Positions 1 through 48,600 of a DNA stretch of 64,000 nucleotides are shown here, one piece after another (within the stretch, counting starts at the first letter, position 1; every line of letters starts with the position of its first letter). The DNA is from Candidatus Gastranaerophilales bacterium (GTDB lineage: Bacteria; Cyanobacteriota; Vampirovibrionia; Gastranaerophilales; Gastranaerophilaceae), in the NCBI GenBank assembly GCA_944325625.1, contig CALVAP010000004.1:62001-126000 (forward strand). Direction: 5' to 3'. The notes below the pieces were generated by a model, which saw only the letters and a program-made list of their open reading frames with translations, did no database searches and was not told the origin of the DNA. Position numbers and translations under genes: made by a program.

Positions 1-1053
1 AGTATTGACAACGAACAACCATTTAGTGCTCCGCTTGCAAAACCACAACTCAGTTCACCAATACTTGATGCCCTACTTATAAAGGAGACGCCCGAAGCAC
101 CAAATTCATTTGGTAAACAAGCTATTTCACCAAATAATAACTCCGCATTAACAAATATAGCTAAGAATATACTTTCAGATTCTACCAATCAAGCGCCAAG
201 CGATACTAAACTAGAAGGAACAGACTCAAAATCCGTTGTAGTGGGAAATACCCAAATTGACAAAGGAATTACACAAGAAGTTGAACCAACACAAGCCGAC
301 GAACCCGATATTAAACCTAAAAGCAAAGAAGAAATAGCCGCTCAAGTTTTGAGTTATGCAAAAGGATACATCATGGGAGAAGAAGGATACGAATCCAAAC
401 CATATATTTGTCCCGCGGGTAAAAGAACAATAGGTTACGGACATAGAATATTGGAAGATGAAAAATTCACGTCCATAAACCAAGCTGAAGCTGAAGCATT
501 ACTTGAAAAGGACATAAAAAAAGCATATACCGCAATAATTGATGCGCTTGGCAATACAGCTGATAAGCTCACAGAACAGCAACTTGCCGCACTGGTGAGC
601 ATGACATTTAATTCTGGTATCAGTGGCGTTATCGACTCAGAATATTTTGCAATGATTAAAAAAGGTGAGTTCGAAGAAGCTCAAGCAAAGATGGATGCGG
701 TTTATGGAAATAAAAAAAATTCCAAAGATGAAAAAGAAATTAAAAACGGGCTTTTAATTCGCAGAACAGAAGAAATGTTACTCTTTGGAAATGGAAAACT
801 TTCACCAAAAGCGCAAGAAAGAGTTTTAGAACTTCTTAACGAATCTTTTAATACAAATTATAGGTCTATAGCGGAAGCAGAAGAAAAAATGAAGTCTGAT
901 CTGACCAAACTTGAAATAGCCAAGAAACTAACTAAAAAAGAAAAGATACAACGTTCAAAACTAAGAAACATAATGGCGTTTTTTGATGCAATTAACAACC
1001 CGCCAATATTCATAGATACAGATGCGAAACCAAAACTTGCTACGGGTAAGTGA
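1..1053 (+). CDS. GH24 lysozyme/endolysin-like protein (5' end outside window)
   Basis: Peptidoglycan-cleaving muramidase of the T4-lysozyme class. The frame is open from base 1 to the TGA at 1051, so the gene begins left of the window; the GTG at 241 is an internal codon. Counting from base 1, about 115 polar, probably disordered residues (rich in S, N, P, Q) precede the lysozyme domain. The GH24 triad E-x8-C-x5-T is readable as E128, C137 and T143, the last in TIGYGH, and the LTEQQLAALVSMTFNSG helix follows. The cysteine form of the triad is an accepted family variant. The tail of about 100 residues is basic and helical. The stop abuts the stop of the convergent manC gene. With no phage genes nearby, a cell-wall remodelling role is as likely as a phage origin. 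Any signal peptide lies outside the window. Confidence 0.85.
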   Translation, partial: SIDNEQPFSAPLAKPQLSSPILDALLIKETPEAPNSFGKQAISPNNNSALTNIAKNILSDSTNQAPSDTKLEGTDSKSVVVGNTQIDKGITQEVEPTQADEPDIKPKSKEEIAAQVLSYAKGYIMGEEGYESKPYICPAGKRTIGYGHRILEDEKFTSINQAEAEALLEKDIKKAYTAIIDALGNTADKLTEQQLAALVSMTFNSGISGVIDSEYFAMIKKGEFEEAQAKMDAVYGNKKNSKDEKEIKNGLLIRRTEEMLLFGNGKLSPKAQERVLELLNESFNTNYRSIAEAEEKMKSDLTKLEIAKKLTKKEKIQRSKLRNIMAFFDAINNPPIFIDTDAKPKLATGK

Positions 1054-2502
1054 TTATACTCGTCCATAAATGTCTTCTAAACGAACAATGTCATTTTCGT
1101 CCAGCACATCGCCTCTTTGAACTTCGAGAATTTTAACCGGTTCATCATAAGGGTTTTGCAGTGAATGCACTTCTTCAATTGCTAAATCAATATGCTCCCC
1201 GGGTAAAAGTACATGCGTTTCTTCACCTTTAACAACAAATGCCTTTCCTTCAAGAACAACCCAATGTTCACTTCTGTGATGATGTAACTGCAAACTAAGT
1301 TTTGCATTAGGGTTAACGACAATACATTTTGTCAAAAAGCCCTTACCTTCCTGCATTACAGTATAATACCCCCAAGGACGAAATACTGTTTTATGAACCT
1401 TATGAGAGTCATCATTTCTTTCTTTTAGCTCATTATAAATCTTTTTTACTTCCTGCGTTTTTGATTTATCACAAACCAAAACAGCATCCTCGGTTTCAAC
1501 AACTACTGTATCTTTCAACCCTATAGTAGTAACAAGTTTTGAGGTAGAATAAATCATAGAGTCTTTAGAATCTATATCAATAACATTTCCTGTAATACAA
1601 TTTCCATTTTTATCTTTTTCAGATATATCATAAATTGCTTCCCAAGAACCCAAATCATTCCAACCACAATCAAGCGGTACCAACGCAATCTTTTTAGACT
1701 GTTCCATCACTGCATAGTCAATTGAAATATCCGGCATTTCCTTAAATTTTTGATATTCCACCGTAGGTTGCGCCTCAAAGTCGATATTCATTTCATTAAT
1801 CAATGAAACAATGTCTTTTGAATATTTTTTCATTTCCGCCATCATAACGGAATACTTAAACATAAATATTCCGCCATTCCAGAAATATTTACCGGACTCA
1901 ACATATTCTTTTGCTGTTTCATAATCGGGTTTCTCTTTAAATTCGACAACTTTAAGCGCTTCTTGAGCCAACTCTGAAACCTTCTTGTTTTTTTGAGTTT
2001 TTATATAGCCAAAGCCCACATCAATCTTAGTCGGTTTAATCCCAAACGTAACGATAAAACCTTCCTGCGCAAGCTTGATACCTTGTTCAACAGCTTTTGA
2101 AAATGCTTTATCATCCAAAATCAAATGGTCCGAAGGAACGACAAGAATAATCGGGTCAACCCTTTTACCTGATAGTAGTTTAATATATTTTGAAGCTAAA
2201 GCAATTGCAGGAGCAGTGTTTCTACCTATGGGCTCAGTAATAATTTTGTAGTTCTCTTTTCTGCAAAATTTGTCTTTCAACTCTTTAAGCTGTATTCTCA
2301 CTCCGGGTTCATGTTTAATATTAGTGATGCTTATAATATTTTTATCGTCAAAATTTTCGATTAAACGCAAAAAAGTAGCCCCAAAAAGCGTGTTTTTTTG
2401 ATTAAGCTTTAAGAGTTGTTTAGGATAAAGCTCACGACTCATCGGCCATAACCTTGAGCCGCTTCCTCCAGCTAATATCAATGCGTACAAATCTTTTGAC
2501 AT
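1054..2502 (-). CDS. manC: mannose-1-phosphate guanylyltransferase / mannose-6-phosphate isomerase
   Basis: Bifunctional cytosolic enzyme making GDP-mannose for surface polysaccharides. The nucleotidyltransferase signature GGSGSRLWPMSR is at residues 12-23 and VVPSDHLI follows. The C-terminal third is a type II phosphomannose isomerase cupin with FRPWGYYTV and LSLQLHHHRSEHWVVLEG. Length (482) is normal for the AlgA/XanB/ManC family. I start at the ATG at 2502, which has GGGAG six bases upstream, rather than the GTG at 2505. It ends base-to-base with the convergent lysozyme gene. The cysD-cysNC-sulfotransferase genes on the other side of the tRNA suggest a glycan-related neighbourhood, but no glycosyltransferase adjoins it. 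Confidence 0.93.
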   Translation of the reverse strand: MSKDLYALILAGGSGSRLWPMSRELYPKQLLKLNQKNTLFGATFLRLIENFDDKNIISITNIKHEPGVRIQLKELKDKFCRKENYKIITEPIGRNTAPAIALASKYIKLLSGKRVDPIILVVPSDHLILDDKAFSKAVEQGIKLAQEGFIVTFGIKPTKIDVGFGYIKTQKNKKVSELAQEALKVVEFKEKPDYETAKEYVESGKYFWNGGIFMFKYSVMMAEMKKYSKDIVSLINEMNIDFEAQPTVEYQKFKEMPDISIDYAVMEQSKKIALVPLDCGWNDLGSWEAIYDISEKDKNGNCITGNVIDIDSKDSMIYSTSKLVTTIGLKDTVVVETEDAVLVCDKSKTQEVKKIYNELKERNDDSHKVHKTVFRPWGYYTVMQEGKGFLTKCIVVNPNAKLSLQLHHHRSEHWVVLEGKAFVVKGEETHVLLPGEHIDLAIEEVHSLQNPYDEPVKILEVQRGDVLDENDIVRLEDIYGRV

Positions 2503-2676
2503 CACATGCTCCCAATTTCAAGCTAATTCTTTAAGAGATTATACAATAAAGCAAAAGATGAATGCAAATATTATATTTGTTGATTAATTAAATATACCTT
2601 ATAAGAAGATTGTAATTAAAATACTTGCGGAAAAAAAGTTTTTCGTGTTATTATAGTAAGGTTGAAAAACAAATAC

Positions 2677-2765
2677 GGAGAAGTGGCCGAGTGGCTGAAG
2701 GCGGCACCCTGCTAAGGTGTTAGGTGGAGTAATCTGCCTCGAGGGTTCAAATCCCTCCTTCTCCG
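2677..2765 (+). tRNA. tRNA-Ser (GCT)
   Basis: Cloverleaf with 7-bp acceptor stem GGAGAAG (2677-2683) against CTTCTCC (2758-2764) and discriminator G. The anticodon loop CTGCTAA is closed by CACC/GGTG and gives anticodon GCT, reading AGC/AGT. A long variable arm, typical of serine tRNA, and a GTTCAAAT T-loop follow. CCA is not encoded. A T-run (2766-2771) starts straight after the acceptor stem and may end transcription. A -10-like TATAGT lies at 2652-2657. Confidence 0.97.
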
Positions 2766-2898
2766 TTTTTTATGTGAATTTTGTTTTGGTTTTTCATACT
2801 TGATTTTGTTAAAGCAATTTGTAATTGCAACTTTTTTCGTATAAACTAAAATTAATTTAGTATATGATATAAACATCTGTTTTAAAAATCGAAAGAAT

Positions 2899-3762
2899 AT
2901 GCTTTGTAATCATCTAAAACAACTTCAAAAACAATCAATAGAACTAATTAGAGAGGTTTGCGCAACAAATAATTATAATGACATGGTTGTTTTTTATTCA
3001 ATAGGAAAAGACAGCAGTGTACTACTGGATTTGTTTAAAAAAGCATTTTATCCGCAAAGCATACCAATAAAATTCTTGCACATTGATACAGGCTGGAAAT
3101 TTAAAGAGATGTACGAGTTCAGAGATAAAATCGCTAAAGAAATTGACCTTCTCGTATACAAAAACCCAGCAAACCTTAACCCTTACACTGACGGGCGAAG
3201 ATACACTGATGTAATGAAGACGGAAGCCCTAAAACAGGCACTTCAAAAATATAAATTCCGAATTGCATTTGGTGGCGGCAGACGTGATGAAGAAAAAAGT
3301 CGTGCAAAAGAGAGAATGGTTTCAATTAGAGATGAGTATAACCGTTGGTCACCGCGCTCACAAAACCCTGAAATACCTCCTCTATACAATACTTTTTTAT
3401 CTGACAAAACAAACTTGCGGATTTTCCCGCTTTCCAACTGGACAGAACTTGACATATGGAGATATATAAAATCTGAAAATATTGACGTTGTACCTCTGTA
3501 TTTCGCAAAAGAGCGCAATGTTATTAAAACCCAACCAGGAATGTACATTATGTCCTACGATAAAATTGGAGAAACGAAAAAAGTCAGATTTAGAACACTT
3601 GGCTGCTATCCGCTAACCGGGGCTGTAGAATCTGATGCTCAAAATGTTGATGACATAATCTCTGAATTAGAAAAGGCTCAGTATACAGAACGAATAACTC
3701 GAGTTATAGATTATGATACCGACGGATCAATGGAAATAAAGAAAAAAGAAGGATATTTTTAA
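2899..3762 (+). CDS. cysD: sulfate adenylyltransferase subunit 2 (CysD)
   Basis: Small catalytic subunit of ATP sulfurylase, which makes adenosine 5'-phosphosulfate from ATP and sulfate together with CysN. The sequence follows CysD throughout: the PP-loop YSIGKDSSV near residue 36, LHIDTGWKF, GGGRRDEEKSRAKER, FPLSNWTELDIW, RFRTLGCYPLTGAVES, and the typical C-terminal GYF. Length (287) is slightly below the usual 300. It starts at ATG 2899 with only a weak purine-rich upstream stretch. The partner cysNC begins seven bases after its stop, clearly one operon. No cysH, cysIJ or sulfate transporter gene is in the window, so the product probably feeds sulfation rather than cysteine synthesis (inference). 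Confidence 0.96.
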   Translation: MLCNHLKQLQKQSIELIREVCATNNYNDMVVFYSIGKDSSVLLDLFKKAFYPQSIPIKFLHIDTGWKFKEMYEFRDKIAKEIDLLVYKNPANLNPYTDGRRYTDVMKTEALKQALQKYKFRIAFGGGRRDEEKSRAKERMVSIRDEYNRWSPRSQNPEIPPLYNTFLSDKTNLRIFPLSNWTELDIWRYIKSENIDVVPLYFAKERNVIKTQPGMYIMSYDKIGETKKVRFRTLGCYPLTGAVESDAQNVDDIISELEKAQYTERITRVIDYDTDGSMEIKKKEGYF

Positions 3763-3769
3763 ACCTACT

Positions 3770-5368
3770 ATGGAGAAACTTTTTAAATTTATATGCTGCG
3801 GAAATGTGGATGACGGAAAATCAACGCTTATTGGACAACTGTTGTTAAACAGTGGTAACGTCAAAGTTGATCAAATGGAAGATGCAAAAAAAGCATCCCA
3901 GAAAAATGGCTCCGGTGTTTTTGAACCTGCTTTTTTGCTTGACGGTTTACTTGAAGAACGTGAACAACAAATAACAATTGATGTTGCTCATAGATTTTTT
4001 GATTATGACGATACAAGATTTCATATTTTAGATTGCCCCGGACATAAACAATACACTAAAAATATGGCAATTGCAGCGGCCGAAGCAGATGCTGCTGTTC
4101 TGGTTATTGATATTAGTAAAGGTATTCAAGAACAAACCCTAAAACACCTGGATATCTGCTCTTATTTCCAAATAGAAAAACTCTGTATATGTATCACAAA
4201 ATGCGACCTAAGCTCTGTTAACGGGAAATGGAATGATGAAAAGATTTTGGATTTAACAGAAAAAATCAAGTCTATTCTTACAAAATACAAATTTGATTAT
4301 ACAATTATCCCCGTATCAAGCATGCAAAACATTGGAATAGACAAGGTTTTAGACAAGCTTGTTGAGTACAAAAATACCATAGATAACCAGGAATATGAAA
4401 ATATTATTCATATACAAGACTGCAAGTTTTCAAACGGTAAACGTTATTATTGGGTACGATATAACAAAAATTTAGACTTAACTAAAAACTACAAACTCTA
4501 CCCCGAGAATATTGATATAACAATAGATAAACTCAGTGAAAATGGAGTTTTAACGATAAAAGAAGATATGGATATTTCAAGGGGACATTGTATTGCTGCA
4601 GGTGAAGTTCTTGTAAATGATTTAATAAGACACTATACCATCTGGTTTTCAGAACCTACAAACGATATGGTAATAAAACACGGTACAAGAACGGTAAAAA
4701 TTCTTAATTACTATGAAAACTCGTTTAAGCTCCAAGAACCATTAATATTCAACAACATAACAGATGTAAAAAACAACGGTTGGGGAATAATAATAGATAA
4801 TCTTACAAAAAAAACTATTGGCTGCGCAGTATTCCTTGCAAATGAGAACACTTACAGCTCAAAAAGCAACAAAAAAGGCAATGTATATTGGTTTACAGGT
4901 TTATCCGGAGCAGGAAAAACTACATTAGCAAAAGAATTACTCAACTCCTTTTCTCTAAAACCGATTTTACTTGACGCTGATGACCTAAGACAAGGGGTTA
5001 ATTCAGATTTAGGCTACAGTAAAGAAGATAGGATAAAAAATGTAGATAGGATTGCACATATTGCAAATCTTCTTGCTTCACAAGGCTTTAATGTAATAGT
5101 AACCTGTATATCAAAGGAAGCTTCGCAAAGAGCAAGAATTAAGGAGCTTATTGGCAAAACATACATAGAAATTTTCGTTGACAGGAGCATAGAAAACTGT
5201 CAAAAATATGATACAAAAGGTCTGTACAAAAGCATTAACAGAGATAATATGATAAACAACTACCAAGAAGGCTCAAGCGTTTCGCTTATTATTGATACAA
5301 ATAATGATACTATTGAAGTATCAAAACAAAAAATGCTAAATTACCTAAAATCTAACAATCTGATTTAG
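3770..5368 (+). CDS. cysNC: short bifunctional sulfate adenylyltransferase subunit 1 / APS kinase (CysNC)
   Basis: GTPase subunit of ATP sulfurylase fused to APS kinase, so with CysD it converts sulfate to PAPS. GTPase motifs: GNVDDGKST at 11-19 and DCPGH at 88-92. The G4 motif reads TKCD (143-146), where NKxD is normal. A beta-barrel region follows, with LTIKEDMDISRGH matching CysN. The APS kinase part starts near 370 with P-loop GLSGAGKTT (377-385), DADDLRQGVNSDLGYS, and DTKGLY near 481. At 532 residues it is roughly 80-100 shorter than common CysNC proteins; the losses lie in the barrel and near the kinase C-terminus, where the usual short GIDSPYE-like stretch is absent. It overlaps the convergent sulfotransferase gene by 17 bases. 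Confidence 0.92.
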   Translation: MEKLFKFICCGNVDDGKSTLIGQLLLNSGNVKVDQMEDAKKASQKNGSGVFEPAFLLDGLLEEREQQITIDVAHRFFDYDDTRFHILDCPGHKQYTKNMAIAAAEADAAVLVIDISKGIQEQTLKHLDICSYFQIEKLCICITKCDLSSVNGKWNDEKILDLTEKIKSILTKYKFDYTIIPVSSMQNIGIDKVLDKLVEYKNTIDNQEYENIIHIQDCKFSNGKRYYWVRYNKNLDLTKNYKLYPENIDITIDKLSENGVLTIKEDMDISRGHCIAAGEVLVNDLIRHYTIWFSEPTNDMVIKHGTRTVKILNYYENSFKLQEPLIFNNITDVKNNGWGIIIDNLTKKTIGCAVFLANENTYSSKSNKKGNVYWFTGLSGAGKTTLAKELLNSFSLKPILLDADDLRQGVNSDLGYSKEDRIKNVDRIAHIANLLASQGFNVIVTCISKEASQRARIKELIGKTYIEIFVDRSIENCQKYDTKGLYKSINRDNMINNYQEGSSVSLIIDTNNDTIEVSKQKMLNYLKSNNLI

Positions 5369-6299
5369 GAACATAAAATTTATCTTTATACCTTTCCGGC
5401 AGCTCATAATCCTCTTTATATAACTCTTTAAGCCTCGATATTTGTTTTTCTGTAAGCATGTCGTAAGTTATTTTTTTATTTTTTGTTACATGGTAATGTT
5501 TTGGTTTTATTTTTAGATTTTCCAACATAAAACTATCTAAATCCTTCAACCATACAAAATCCGTAATTTCATCTATAAAATCCTTCAAAAACAAACTTAA
5601 AGGAACTAAATGTTGGTCAAAACATTTAGAATTTAAAGTTTGCATCTGTACAGCAAGTATCATTTTATCAACAAACTCTGATAAATTTTCTTCCTCAGGA
5701 TTATAAGGTACTATAGACGCAATACCCATATGTCCATTAATCTTATCATTAGCTGCTCGCAAAAACCGTTTAATCGGATCATCATATACTGTAAATTTTT
5801 TCCAACCCGCAAAATACTCTTTTTGCATAACATAATCTTCTTTCTTCAACCAAACAGAACCAAGGTTTTCAGTTTTATTCCAAATTTCATGCCAAACCTT
5901 TTTACCGGTTACTCTTGGCTGATAGAACTTTCGCCAAAAATAATTGTAAAATTCTGAAGCTATTGAAGTAGAAGCGTTTTTTGGTGAATCGAAATAAACT
6001 ATTTTATGTTTCTTTACAGGGAAAACATAAGGCGATTTGAAGTAATAAGTAGACTTGATATCAATCTGACTCAATACACCAAAACGATTATCGTGAATTA
6101 AAGCCGTTTTCCCCCTCATCCCTGGAATTATTACATATAGTATATTACCCTCTTCCCCAACAATCTCAAGCTCTTTCATATCCGGCAACCGAATAAGTAC
6201 TCTGGCAAATGTATCAACCAGAAGCTGAAATTTGCCAAGTGTAGAGTACACGTCCAATTTGAATTGTCTTTTATCCTTCATAACCACATAAAATAACAT
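5352..6299 (-). CDS. probable PAPS-dependent carbohydrate sulfotransferase
   Basis: Likely transfers sulfate from PAPS to a glycan or lipid. About 100 N-terminal residues without obvious motif are followed by KIVYFDSPKNASTSIASEF, which matches the 5'-phosphosulfate loop of Sulfotransfer_2-type enzymes (usually fhIPKcAgTSi). Further on, KKFTVYDDPIKRFLRAANDK matches the 3'-phosphate motif (usually FvRDPyeRflSay), but with Asp for the usual Arg and Ala-Ala-Asn where Ser is expected. Its 3' end overlaps cysNC, the gene for PAPS synthesis, which supports the call. ATG 6299 is chosen over TTG 6311; ATG 6281 is also possible, and none has a good Shine-Dalgarno. Acceptor unknown. Confidence 0.62.
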   Translation of the reverse strand: MLFYVVMKDKRQFKLDVYSTLGKFQLLVDTFARVLIRLPDMKELEIVGEEGNILYVIIPGMRGKTALIHDNRFGVLSQIDIKSTYYFKSPYVFPVKKHKIVYFDSPKNASTSIASEFYNYFWRKFYQPRVTGKKVWHEIWNKTENLGSVWLKKEDYVMQKEYFAGWKKFTVYDDPIKRFLRAANDKINGHMGIASIVPYNPEEENLSEFVDKMILAVQMQTLNSKCFDQHLVPLSLFLKDFIDEITDFVWLKDLDSFMLENLKIKPKHYHVTKNKKITYDMLTEKQISRLKELYKEDYELPERYKDKFYVPKSDC

Positions 6300-46309: not shown

Positions 46310-46323
46310 TATAATATAGTTTA
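46310..46323 (+). promoter_or_regulatory. -10 box of leaderless neuB-like gene
   Basis: TATAAT (46310-46315) ends seven bases before the ATG at 46323, without Shine-Dalgarno. A weak -35 (TTTCAA, 46287-46292) sits 17 bases upstream. Confidence 0.5.
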
Positions 46324-47222
46324 TGGAAAAGAAGAGAACAAACGCGTTTAATTTAATAGCAGAAATAGGCTGCAATCATCAAGGGAATATAAACCTTGCT
46401 AAAGAACTGATTGTTAATGCACGCCGCTGCGGCTGTAACATTGTAAAATTTCAAAAAAGGACACCGGAACTGCAATTTACACCCGAGAAATTCAACGCCC
46501 CACACCCATCGCCAGAGAATGCTTTCGGAAAAACATATGGTGAACATAGAAAAAATCTTGAGTTCAATATCGAACAACATAGAGAATTAATGAATTTTGC
46601 ACGCGCAAACAGGATAGAATACTCTTGCAGCGTGTTTGATATCATTTCAGCAAAAGAGCTGGTTTCAATTCATCCTTCGCACATAAAAATTCCTTCAACA
46701 TGTAATCATAATTCAGAAATTATTGAATACATCGCCAAAAACTTTTTTGGCACAATACATGTTTCACTTGGAATGACAACACATACCGAAGAAGCAAACC
46801 TTATCACTATTTTAAATAAGCATAATAAACTTAAAAATACCGTCTTGTACCATTGCGTTTCTTGTTATCCTGTTGAGGATAAGGATGTATGTCTTCCTGA
46901 AATAACAAGACTGAGTAAAATATATCAAAGTGAAGTTAAAGCGATAGGATTATCAGGTCACCATATCGGAACGCTGGTTGATTGTATGGCTTTGGCTCTT
47001 GGAGTTCAATATATTGAGCGTCACTTCACTTTCGATAAAAATGCAAAAGGCTCAGACCATAAAATTTCGTTAAATTATGACGAAATGAGAGAACTAAGCG
47101 AGCAACTTAACCATGCAAGCTTATACTTAAACCAAAAACCTAAAAAGATTTTAGATTGTGAACTCAAAACAAGGAAGTTTCATAAAGAAAATTTTATTAC
47201 AGCAGGTTATGAAAATGGCTAA
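46323..47222 (+). CDS. neuB: NeuB-family nonulosonic acid synthase lacking the SAF domain
   Basis: 299 residues. Condenses phosphoenolpyruvate with a hexosamine-type sugar to form a sialic acid-like 9-carbon acid. Matches the NeuB barrel: FNLIAEIGCNHQGNINLAKELI, VKFQKRTPELQF, IEYSCSVFDIISAKEL, YHCVSCYPVEDKDVCL, IGLSGHHIGT and IERHFTFDKNAKGSDHKISL. It stops after LDCELKTRKFHKENF, where other NeuB proteins continue into an antifreeze-like SAF domain, so it is about 45 residues shorter. No neuA or epimerase is nearby. The next gene begins inside its end. Confidence 0.82.
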   Translation: MEKKRTNAFNLIAEIGCNHQGNINLAKELIVNARRCGCNIVKFQKRTPELQFTPEKFNAPHPSPENAFGKTYGEHRKNLEFNIEQHRELMNFARANRIEYSCSVFDIISAKELVSIHPSHIKIPSTCNHNSEIIEYIAKNFFGTIHVSLGMTTHTEEANLITILNKHNKLKNTVLYHCVSCYPVEDKDVCLPEITRLSKIYQSEVKAIGLSGHHIGTLVDCMALALGVQYIERHFTFDKNAKGSDHKISLNYDEMRELSEQLNHASLYLNQKPKKILDCELKTRKFHKENFITAGYENG

Positions 47223-48600
47223 AAAAAGACTTTTTATCGTTGCCGGAACATTTACAACCGCTATAAGCGCAGCTTTAATAAAACAACTTAATACTCCCAA
47301 TTGCGAAAACTATCTTGTTTCTATCGCACCGACGTTATACGAAAATGTTGATGTTCATATAAAAAATGAAGCACAGCGACTTGAAATATTTAAGGAAATT
47401 TGGTTTTATTTTGATTTTTGCGCTCCAAAATCAAAATTTAAAGAAGAAAAACCACATGTTTTAAGCTTCAATGTACAAAAATTCAAAGCGGCAACGGGCA
47501 ATATTGAATTTGACGAAATTTTTTCCGTATATATTCACGGGGCAGCAAACCACCTATTTAATCAGTATCCCAAAGCCGATTTGTATTTTATGGAAGATGG
47601 AACAGCCGCATACCTAAAAATGGATAATGCCTCCAAAATTAACAAACGGGCGAAAAAAATATATACACTGAACTATTTTAACAAAATAAAACCCTTTGTT
47701 GCCACGCATGAAGGAGTAAAACCGGTTACAATCGATAAAAACCTGGTCAAAGAAGTTTTTGAAAAAATAGCATCACAAGTTAATGCTAAGTTTGATAGAA
47801 AACAAAAATCCGTCATCTTTTGTGCTCAAAACATCTCAATTAACCAAAAAGCAATGAAATACGACGATGAACTCAATTTGTACAAAAGGAACATTGAAAA
47901 TCTACTGAAAAAAGGGTATTTGGTATATTTTAAAGAACACCCCAAAACGCCTTTAATGTTCTTCAACAATTTGAAAAAACAAATAACTGACCCCAACTTT
48001 GTGAACTTGGGCAGTTTTAATATTTTACCCGTAGAAGTTCTGGTTCCAATGATTTCGCCGGTAGCTGTAGTGTCAATGTTTTCATCCGCATTATTTACGG
48101 TGCCTTGGATATTTTCAATACCCGCTTTTACTTTTTTTATGGACAAAGAATTTATAAATCACGAAATATTTGGTATCGCACACCTGCTTGTCGCCCATTA
48201 CATCCCTTCAATTGACCTTGTCGATGAAAAGCCGGATATTACAAAACAAAATTTTAATTTCTTTATCGAAAAAACGCTCCCGCTTGAAAGACAAACTATC
48301 TATTCCATAAAACTTATTGATTATTTTAAACTGTTTATTTCTAAAAGACAGTTTAATAAGCTTCAAAAAGACTTTAAAAAATGTCATAAATTTTTATTAA
48401 ATTATGCAAACTTAAGAAATGAAGTAGTAGATTTATTTTTAAATCAATCTTATCTCTCCTTCTTATTGTATTATGCAGAAGACTATCAAAAACAATACAA
48501 AAAATACCTGGAAAGTAAAAAAAAGAAAAAAAGTTCTCTAAAAGACACATTAAACTTTATAAAGGAAGGGCTTGCCATTATTTTCAAGCTTGTATTGTAA
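47215..48600 (+). CDS. polysialyltransferase-like protein
   Basis: 461 residues from ATG 47215, overlapping the neuB stop by eight bases (ATG at 47209 is the alternative). The N-terminal MAKKRLFIVAGTFTTAIS and middle region (YFMEDGTAAYL, VIFCAQNISIN, YFKEHPKTPLMFF, LPVEVLVPMISPVAVVSMFSSAL) match the alpha-2,8-polysialyltransferase family (GT52/GT-B-like fold, POLYST). It probably adds sialic acid-like residues to a surface polymer. The C-terminal 100 residues are basic and helical and may associate with the membrane. Confidence 0.7.
   Translation: MAKKRLFIVAGTFTTAISAALIKQLNTPNCENYLVSIAPTLYENVDVHIKNEAQRLEIFKEIWFYFDFCAPKSKFKEEKPHVLSFNVQKFKAATGNIEFDEIFSVYIHGAANHLFNQYPKADLYFMEDGTAAYLKMDNASKINKRAKKIYTLNYFNKIKPFVATHEGVKPVTIDKNLVKEVFEKIASQVNAKFDRKQKSVIFCAQNISINQKAMKYDDELNLYKRNIENLLKKGYLVYFKEHPKTPLMFFNNLKKQITDPNFVNLGSFNILPVEVLVPMISPVAVVSMFSSALFTVPWIFSIPAFTFFMDKEFINHEIFGIAHLLVAHYIPSIDLVDEKPDITKQNFNFFIEKTLPLERQTIYSIKLIDYFKLFISKRQFNKLQKDFKKCHKFLLNYANLRNEVVDLFLNQSYLSFLLYYAEDYQKQYKKYLESKKKKKSSLKDTLNFIKEGLAIIFKLVL

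Follow-up and report, generated by a model that had tools for sequence, protein, structure and literature searches.

A first-pass annotation of 64,000 nucleotides of DNA from a Candidatus Gastranaerophilales bacterium (in the following: the window) recorded genes for the synthesis of PAPS tail to tail with a putative sulfotransferase gene. This arrangement raises the question whether PAPS is reduced in this organism or spent on sulfation, and on which acceptor. Bacteria that make PAPS solely for sulfation are few and informative. The question was approached computationally via the parts present, the absence of reductases, the homology of the sulfotransferase and the co-occurrence of both gene sets in related genomes.

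Organization of the locus

The cysD and cysNC genes and the convergent gene were found as annotated (Table 1). A gap of only 7 bases separates cysD from cysNC on the same strand and, judging from position, the two are surely co-transcribed. The sulfotransferase gene overlaps the end of cysNC by 17 bp. The score of CysD lies above the cut-off of the NF003587 CysD model (195 bits) and below that of TIGR02039 (396.6). CysNC is short (532 aa) and divergent in its CysN part. Its full length can be aligned with CysN/CysC proteins (identity approximately 30%), its best PDB match is 1zun_B (annotated as CysN/adenylylsulfate kinase), and both P-loops (GNVDDGKS and GLSGAGKT) are retained; despite its length the protein is a normal CysN-CysC fusion. 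With clear family-model matches for both proteins and both nucleotide-binding loops intact, the set for PAPS synthesis is complete, in line with the original assignment.

Table 1. Features of the locus and of corresponding loci in relatives (window coordinates unless a locus is named).
Feature	Position	Strand	Evidence
manC-type gene, bifunctional GDP-mannose pyrophosphorylase/phosphomannose isomerase (GMP-PMI)	1054..2505	-	TIGR01479, 521 bits
tRNA-Ser (gct), between manC and cysD	2676..2766	+	ARAGORN
cysD, ATP sulfurylase small subunit	2899..3762	+	PF01507, 2.4e-49; NF003587 CysD, 361 bits
cysNC, ATP sulfurylase GTPase subunit fused to APS kinase	3770..5368	+	GTP_EFTU, 2.1e-42; APS_kinase, 3.4e-32
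Divergent Sulfotransfer_2-type sulfotransferase with N-terminal all-beta domain	5352..6281 (start from homologues; alternative start ATG 6299)	-	Pfam, fold matches, profile-profile match
5'-phosphosulfate-binding loop F-D-S-P-K-N-A-S-T-S-I	5955..5987	-	alignments; beta-loop-helix in model
Degenerate 3'-phosphate motif T-V-Y-D-D-P-I-K-R-F-L-R-A-A-N	5748..5792	-	comparison with Tritonibacter homologue
Small DUF2061 membrane protein gene between cysD and cysNC	L052 10774-10992; L053 2498-2731; L085 5817-6092

The GDP-mannose gene to which the first-pass annotation had drawn attention is indeed present upstream. As a pathway partner it is only weakly indicated, because a tRNA gene intervenes and manC is transcribed away from cysD. 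The designation of the locus as an island was not supported: the three genes are ordinary in GC and GC3 (within about 1.6 standard deviations of the 56 window ORFs), the adjacency occurs in this genome only, and in relatives the components are found at separate loci. In one relative (G001), a TPR gene and those that follow it are conserved with no cys genes at that place, which indicates that the cys genes have moved. No mobile element marks were detected around the three genes, and the neighbouring tRNA-Ser gene is only suggestive of acquisition. Searches with defence models yielded nothing of note, and a promoter scan gave sites no more numerous than in shuffled sequences. At the beginning of the window (241-1053, plus strand) lies a protein with a phage-lysozyme-like domain (PF00959), part of a longer frame entering from upstream and with no adjoining phage genes.

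Identity of the convergent gene product

By sequence, the relationship of the convergent gene product to Pfam Sulfotransfer_2 (PF03567) is real but weak. The window protein scored 21.8 bits (2.3e-4), just under the cut-off of 22, whereas its homologues at L058 (22.3 bits) and L059 (31.0 bits) passed. All five members of the group, which are 36-66% identical to the window protein, matched the family, the best at 3.5e-7. In a profile-profile comparison with five other Sulfotransfer_2-type proteins of the same class, 180 columns were aligned with 80% probability. A PDB sequence search with the protein and its profile returned nothing.

The structure model of the window protein (pLDDT 72.5, pTM 0.75; stretch 102-144 poor) was compared with known folds using Foldseek. 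In the PDB the top 11 matches were all sulfotransferases, with low TM-scores and E-values of 0.05-0.3; they include heparan sulfate N-, 3-O- and 2-O-sulfotransferases, each a weak match (E 0.05 and up). In BFVD the top matches were viral and phage sulfotransferases with E-values down to 7.5e-6, and most of the 10 matches at E<=0.001 carry the name sulfotransferase. A protein named carbohydrate sulfotransferase 8-10 was also among the fold matches. A second prediction, for the catalytic domain of the L061 copy, reached a pLDDT of only 39.5 and its fold search was uninformative. The top informative matches are thus sulfotransferases, and a fold of some other kind, which would have spoken against the annotation, did not emerge. 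The model further contains an extra all-beta N-terminal domain of approximately 75-80 residues, which in one member weakly resembled a 6-fold beta flower.

Compared with Pfam Sulfotransfer_2, the group shares a domain match in all members (for the window protein just below the cut-off), the 5' loop and the beta-loop-helix core, but differs by the N-terminal beta domain and an altered 3'-phosphate motif. Because the latter departs from R-x-P-x(4,5)-S, the protein was filed as a divergent relative of the family, with a sulfotransferase-like mode of action retained in the assignment. The enzyme branch, which is new to us, is limited to few genomes.

Co-occurrence with CysD and CysNC

Among the 146 relatives searched, sulfotransferases of the window type were found only in the three genomes of the window's own genus (the genome of the window, G001 and G002); of the 88 family genomes, no others have a true CysD. 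Four other family genomes gave moderately strong PF01507 matches (E ~1e-30), which were set apart from CysD by length or context and are proteins of other kinds (one of 293 aa linked to an integrase, the others of 579-619 aa). When 84,980 species genomes were scanned, one further carrier (L061 in genome G146) emerged independently, which also possesses cysD and cysNC, so that CysNC accompanies the sulfotransferase in all four genomes in which it was found.

The association extends to the other Sulfotransfer_2 proteins of the class: all seven of the 146 genomes that bear one, including the remaining four of the class (G095, G104, G137 and G139), have a strong PF01507 match, such matches occurring in 25 of the 146 (p ~2e-6 without adjustment; 1e-4 if they are taken as five lineages). 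In G137, the gene immediately after an APS kinase gene, on the same strand, encodes a Sulfotransfer_2 protein.

Only in the window genome is the sulfotransferase gene located beside cysNC. G001, G002 and G146 share the gene order cysD, DUF2061, cysNC and have the sulfotransferase gene elsewhere. Since the loci are separate there, the co-occurrence is not due to hitch-hiking; the link between cysDNC and the sulfotransferase is functional rather than positional, and co-occurrence is the stronger argument. The DUF2061 gene overlaps cysD in all three of these relatives and is absent from that place in the window, which has lost it from between cysD and cysNC. Directly downstream of cysNC in G146 (L085 8248-15001), ketosynthase, ketoreductase, dehydratase and acyl-carrier-like genes were observed which, from a reading of the translations by eye, resemble aryl polyene clusters.

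Descent of the sulfotransferase gene from a phage or plasmid was considered and rejected, as no relatives were found in phages or viral contigs and a single one, of 23% identity, in plasmids.

Genomic context and the likely acceptor

Three of the four sulfotransferase paralogues found elsewhere lie by glycan genes. One of the two copies in G001 (L047) adjoins a polysaccharide pyruvyl transferase gene (PS_pyruv_trans), and the other (L049) has GT2 and PMT_2 glycosyltransferase genes nearby. The copy in G146 (L061 7940-11936) is near genes for a HAD phosphatase, a NeuA-type CTP_transf_3 protein, a GT2 protein whose C-terminal part is long, and NeuB, possibly a sialyl-type glycan cluster. The G002 copy adjoins genes for a DMT-type transporter and a DUF1796 protein. 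No glycan cluster directly surrounds the gene in the window, where only manC is close; 40 kb away (46323-48600, plus strand) a NeuB-type synthase gene is followed by a gene for an alpha-2,8-polysialyltransferase-like protein (PF07388, 9.6e-23), and the organism probably makes a glycan containing nonulosonic acid. The neighbours of the paralogues thus favour a glycan as acceptor, which may contain a sugar of the sialic acid type.

A small molecule or lipid, such as a host sterol, a bile acid or a membrane lipid, might be sulfated instead. A precedent with the same gene logic in a gut-type setting comes from Bacteroides, in which PAPS genes (Bt_0411-0415) adjoin the gene of the sulfotransferase BT_0416, an enzyme that makes cholesterol sulfate (PMC9417993). 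The present protein, however, is of the Sulfotransfer_2 type with heparan sulfate and carbohydrate sulfotransferases among its fold matches, searches of the genomes considered here detected neither Sulfotransfer_1 nor Sulfotransfer_3 proteins, and the glycan genes beside the paralogues likewise argue against a lipid. Characterized members of Sulfotransfer_2 act largely on carbohydrates. A non-glycan acceptor is therefore considered unlikely.

Sulfated sugars abound in mucus and host cells. By placing sulfate on its own surface or on molecules of the host, a gut bacterium could imitate the host's glycans or change sterols. A speculative extension of the glycan reading, to which we give little credence, is that this genus-restricted family, whose members have a rebuilt PAPS 3'-phosphate site and an N-terminal beta domain fused to the enzyme, acts on a surface glycan of the sialic acid type and so provides a host-like sulfated, sialylated coat.

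Cofactor-binding motifs

Both sulfotransferase cofactor motifs had been reported for the convergent gene product. The 5'-phosphosulfate loop, PKNASTSI, was borne out as canonical: its lysine is invariant in the 10 aligned proteins, and in the model a strand (residues 94-97) is followed by the loop and a helix (105-115). The 3'-phosphate motif, by contrast, lacks its arginine and, in most members, its serine. Where the Tritonibacter homologue has VRDPVRRFLSAYSNR, the window protein has VYDDPIKRFLRAANDK; the canonical Arg is replaced by D/E in five of five members, and in four of five, the window protein included, Arg stands in place of the canonical Ser. This alteration is the main reason for caution over the use of PAPS, because binding would need other residues (candidates are K171, R172 and R175, numbered from the 6281 start) or activity may have been lost. 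Heparan N-sulfotransferases also lack Arg at the corresponding place, yet are active.

The degenerate motif, together with a Pfam score at threshold and the marginal PDB fold matches, might mean that the protein is inactive or uses another nucleotide, and that CysDNC provides PAPS or APS for some other purpose. Such a loss of function seems distinctly improbable given that the catalytic-loop Lys and the patterns DQH..P and DF..L.D.D are kept among members at 36-66% overall identity, which indicates that the sulfotransferase is under constraint. Its strict co-occurrence with CysD/CysNC points in the same direction, and no other known PAPS user was found.

Fate of PAPS

The genome to which the window belongs (1.70 Mb in 17 contigs) was examined by profile searches. 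CysD is its sole PF01507 protein, and hence it contains no PAPS/APS reductase (CysH). The NIR_SIR domain of sulfite reductases, which also covers Asr- and Dsr-type reductases, was found neither there nor in G001 or G002, although it occurs in 11 of 14 control genomes; no match of CysH strength occurred in G001 and G002. The first-pass observation that no PAPS or sulfite reductase gene lies near the locus therefore extends to the entire genome, and no cysH-cysIJ set that could use the PAPS was found elsewhere in it. Ordinary sulfate assimilation, with the reductase steps missed by the searches or hidden in an assembly gap, is very improbable: the assembly is fragmented and some assimilation enzymes are atypical, but completeness is 99.7%, G001 and G002 from the same genus likewise lack both reductase signals, and control genomes gave positive matches in the same searches.

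Members of the inositol-phosphatase family PF00459 (CysQ, SuhB) were absent from the window genome as well as from G001, G002 and G146 and present in all 14 controls, which counts against a dedicated sulfation module; a DHH/NrnA-type enzyme could substitute for CysQ as PAP phosphatase. A SulP transporter is present and was rejected as a partner importer, as it occurs in 84 of 117 family genomes and hence indicates nothing specific.

The first-pass proposal that PAPS is destined for sulfation is well supported by the lack of CysH and NIR_SIR and by a sulfotransferase that tracks CysD/CysNC. In the proposed pathway, (i) CysD together with the CysN portion of CysNC would convert sulfate and ATP to APS; (ii) the kinase part of CysNC would phosphorylate APS to PAPS; (iii) PAPS, which the cell cannot reduce, would be spent by the cytosolic PAPS-dependent sulfotransferase encoded by the convergent gene; and (iv) the acceptor, most likely a sugar in a glycan of the cell surface or in its lipid-linked precursor, would receive a sulfate ester. 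We infer catalytic activity of the sulfotransferase, PAPS as its donor and the acceptor from the data above, and regard this use of PAPS, most likely on a surface-glycan sugar, as reasonably probable. Retention of the costly PAPS pathway in a small genome that lacks sulfate reduction points to one dedicated acceptor.

Relation to known systems

PAPS genes combined with a sulfotransferase constitute a system of an already known kind. In Vibrio sp. KMM 8419, cysD/cysN(C) and sulfotransferase genes within a polysaccharide cluster were regarded by the authors as a hallmark of sulfated polysaccharide synthesis (PMC11641403), and the sulfated capsule cluster of Cobetia marina KMM 1449 comprises fused cysN/cysC, GDP-mannose genes, cysQ and a sulfate permease (PMC11766843). 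The locus described here resembles these marine clusters in the pairing of PAPS genes with a sulfotransferase gene. They are large, however, whereas here three genes stand without a surrounding capsule cluster, in a genome devoid of a PF00459 phosphatase. From the Bacteroides system it differs in that the acceptor there is cholesterol and the present protein belongs to the Sulfotransfer_2 type.

The comparison with rhizobia drawn in the first-pass annotation applies to the dedicated supply of PAPS to a sulfotransferase; nod context is lacking here. Rhizobial NodPQ, equivalent to CysD/CysNC, is a dedicated ATP sulfurylase/APS kinase that supplies the sulfotransferase NodH, and rhizobia also assimilate sulfate. 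CysN/CysC genes on rhizobial plasmids match the CysNC of the window at approximately 30% identity.

A narrow literature search revealed no report linking the probable lineage (gut Vampirovibrionia, formerly Melainabacteria) with sulfotransferases or sulfate assimilation. Finally, on a plasmid of a seaweed-associated Tritonibacter (L091 5989-9936), a Sulfotransfer_2 gene and a Stf0 gene were observed among glycosyltransferase genes.
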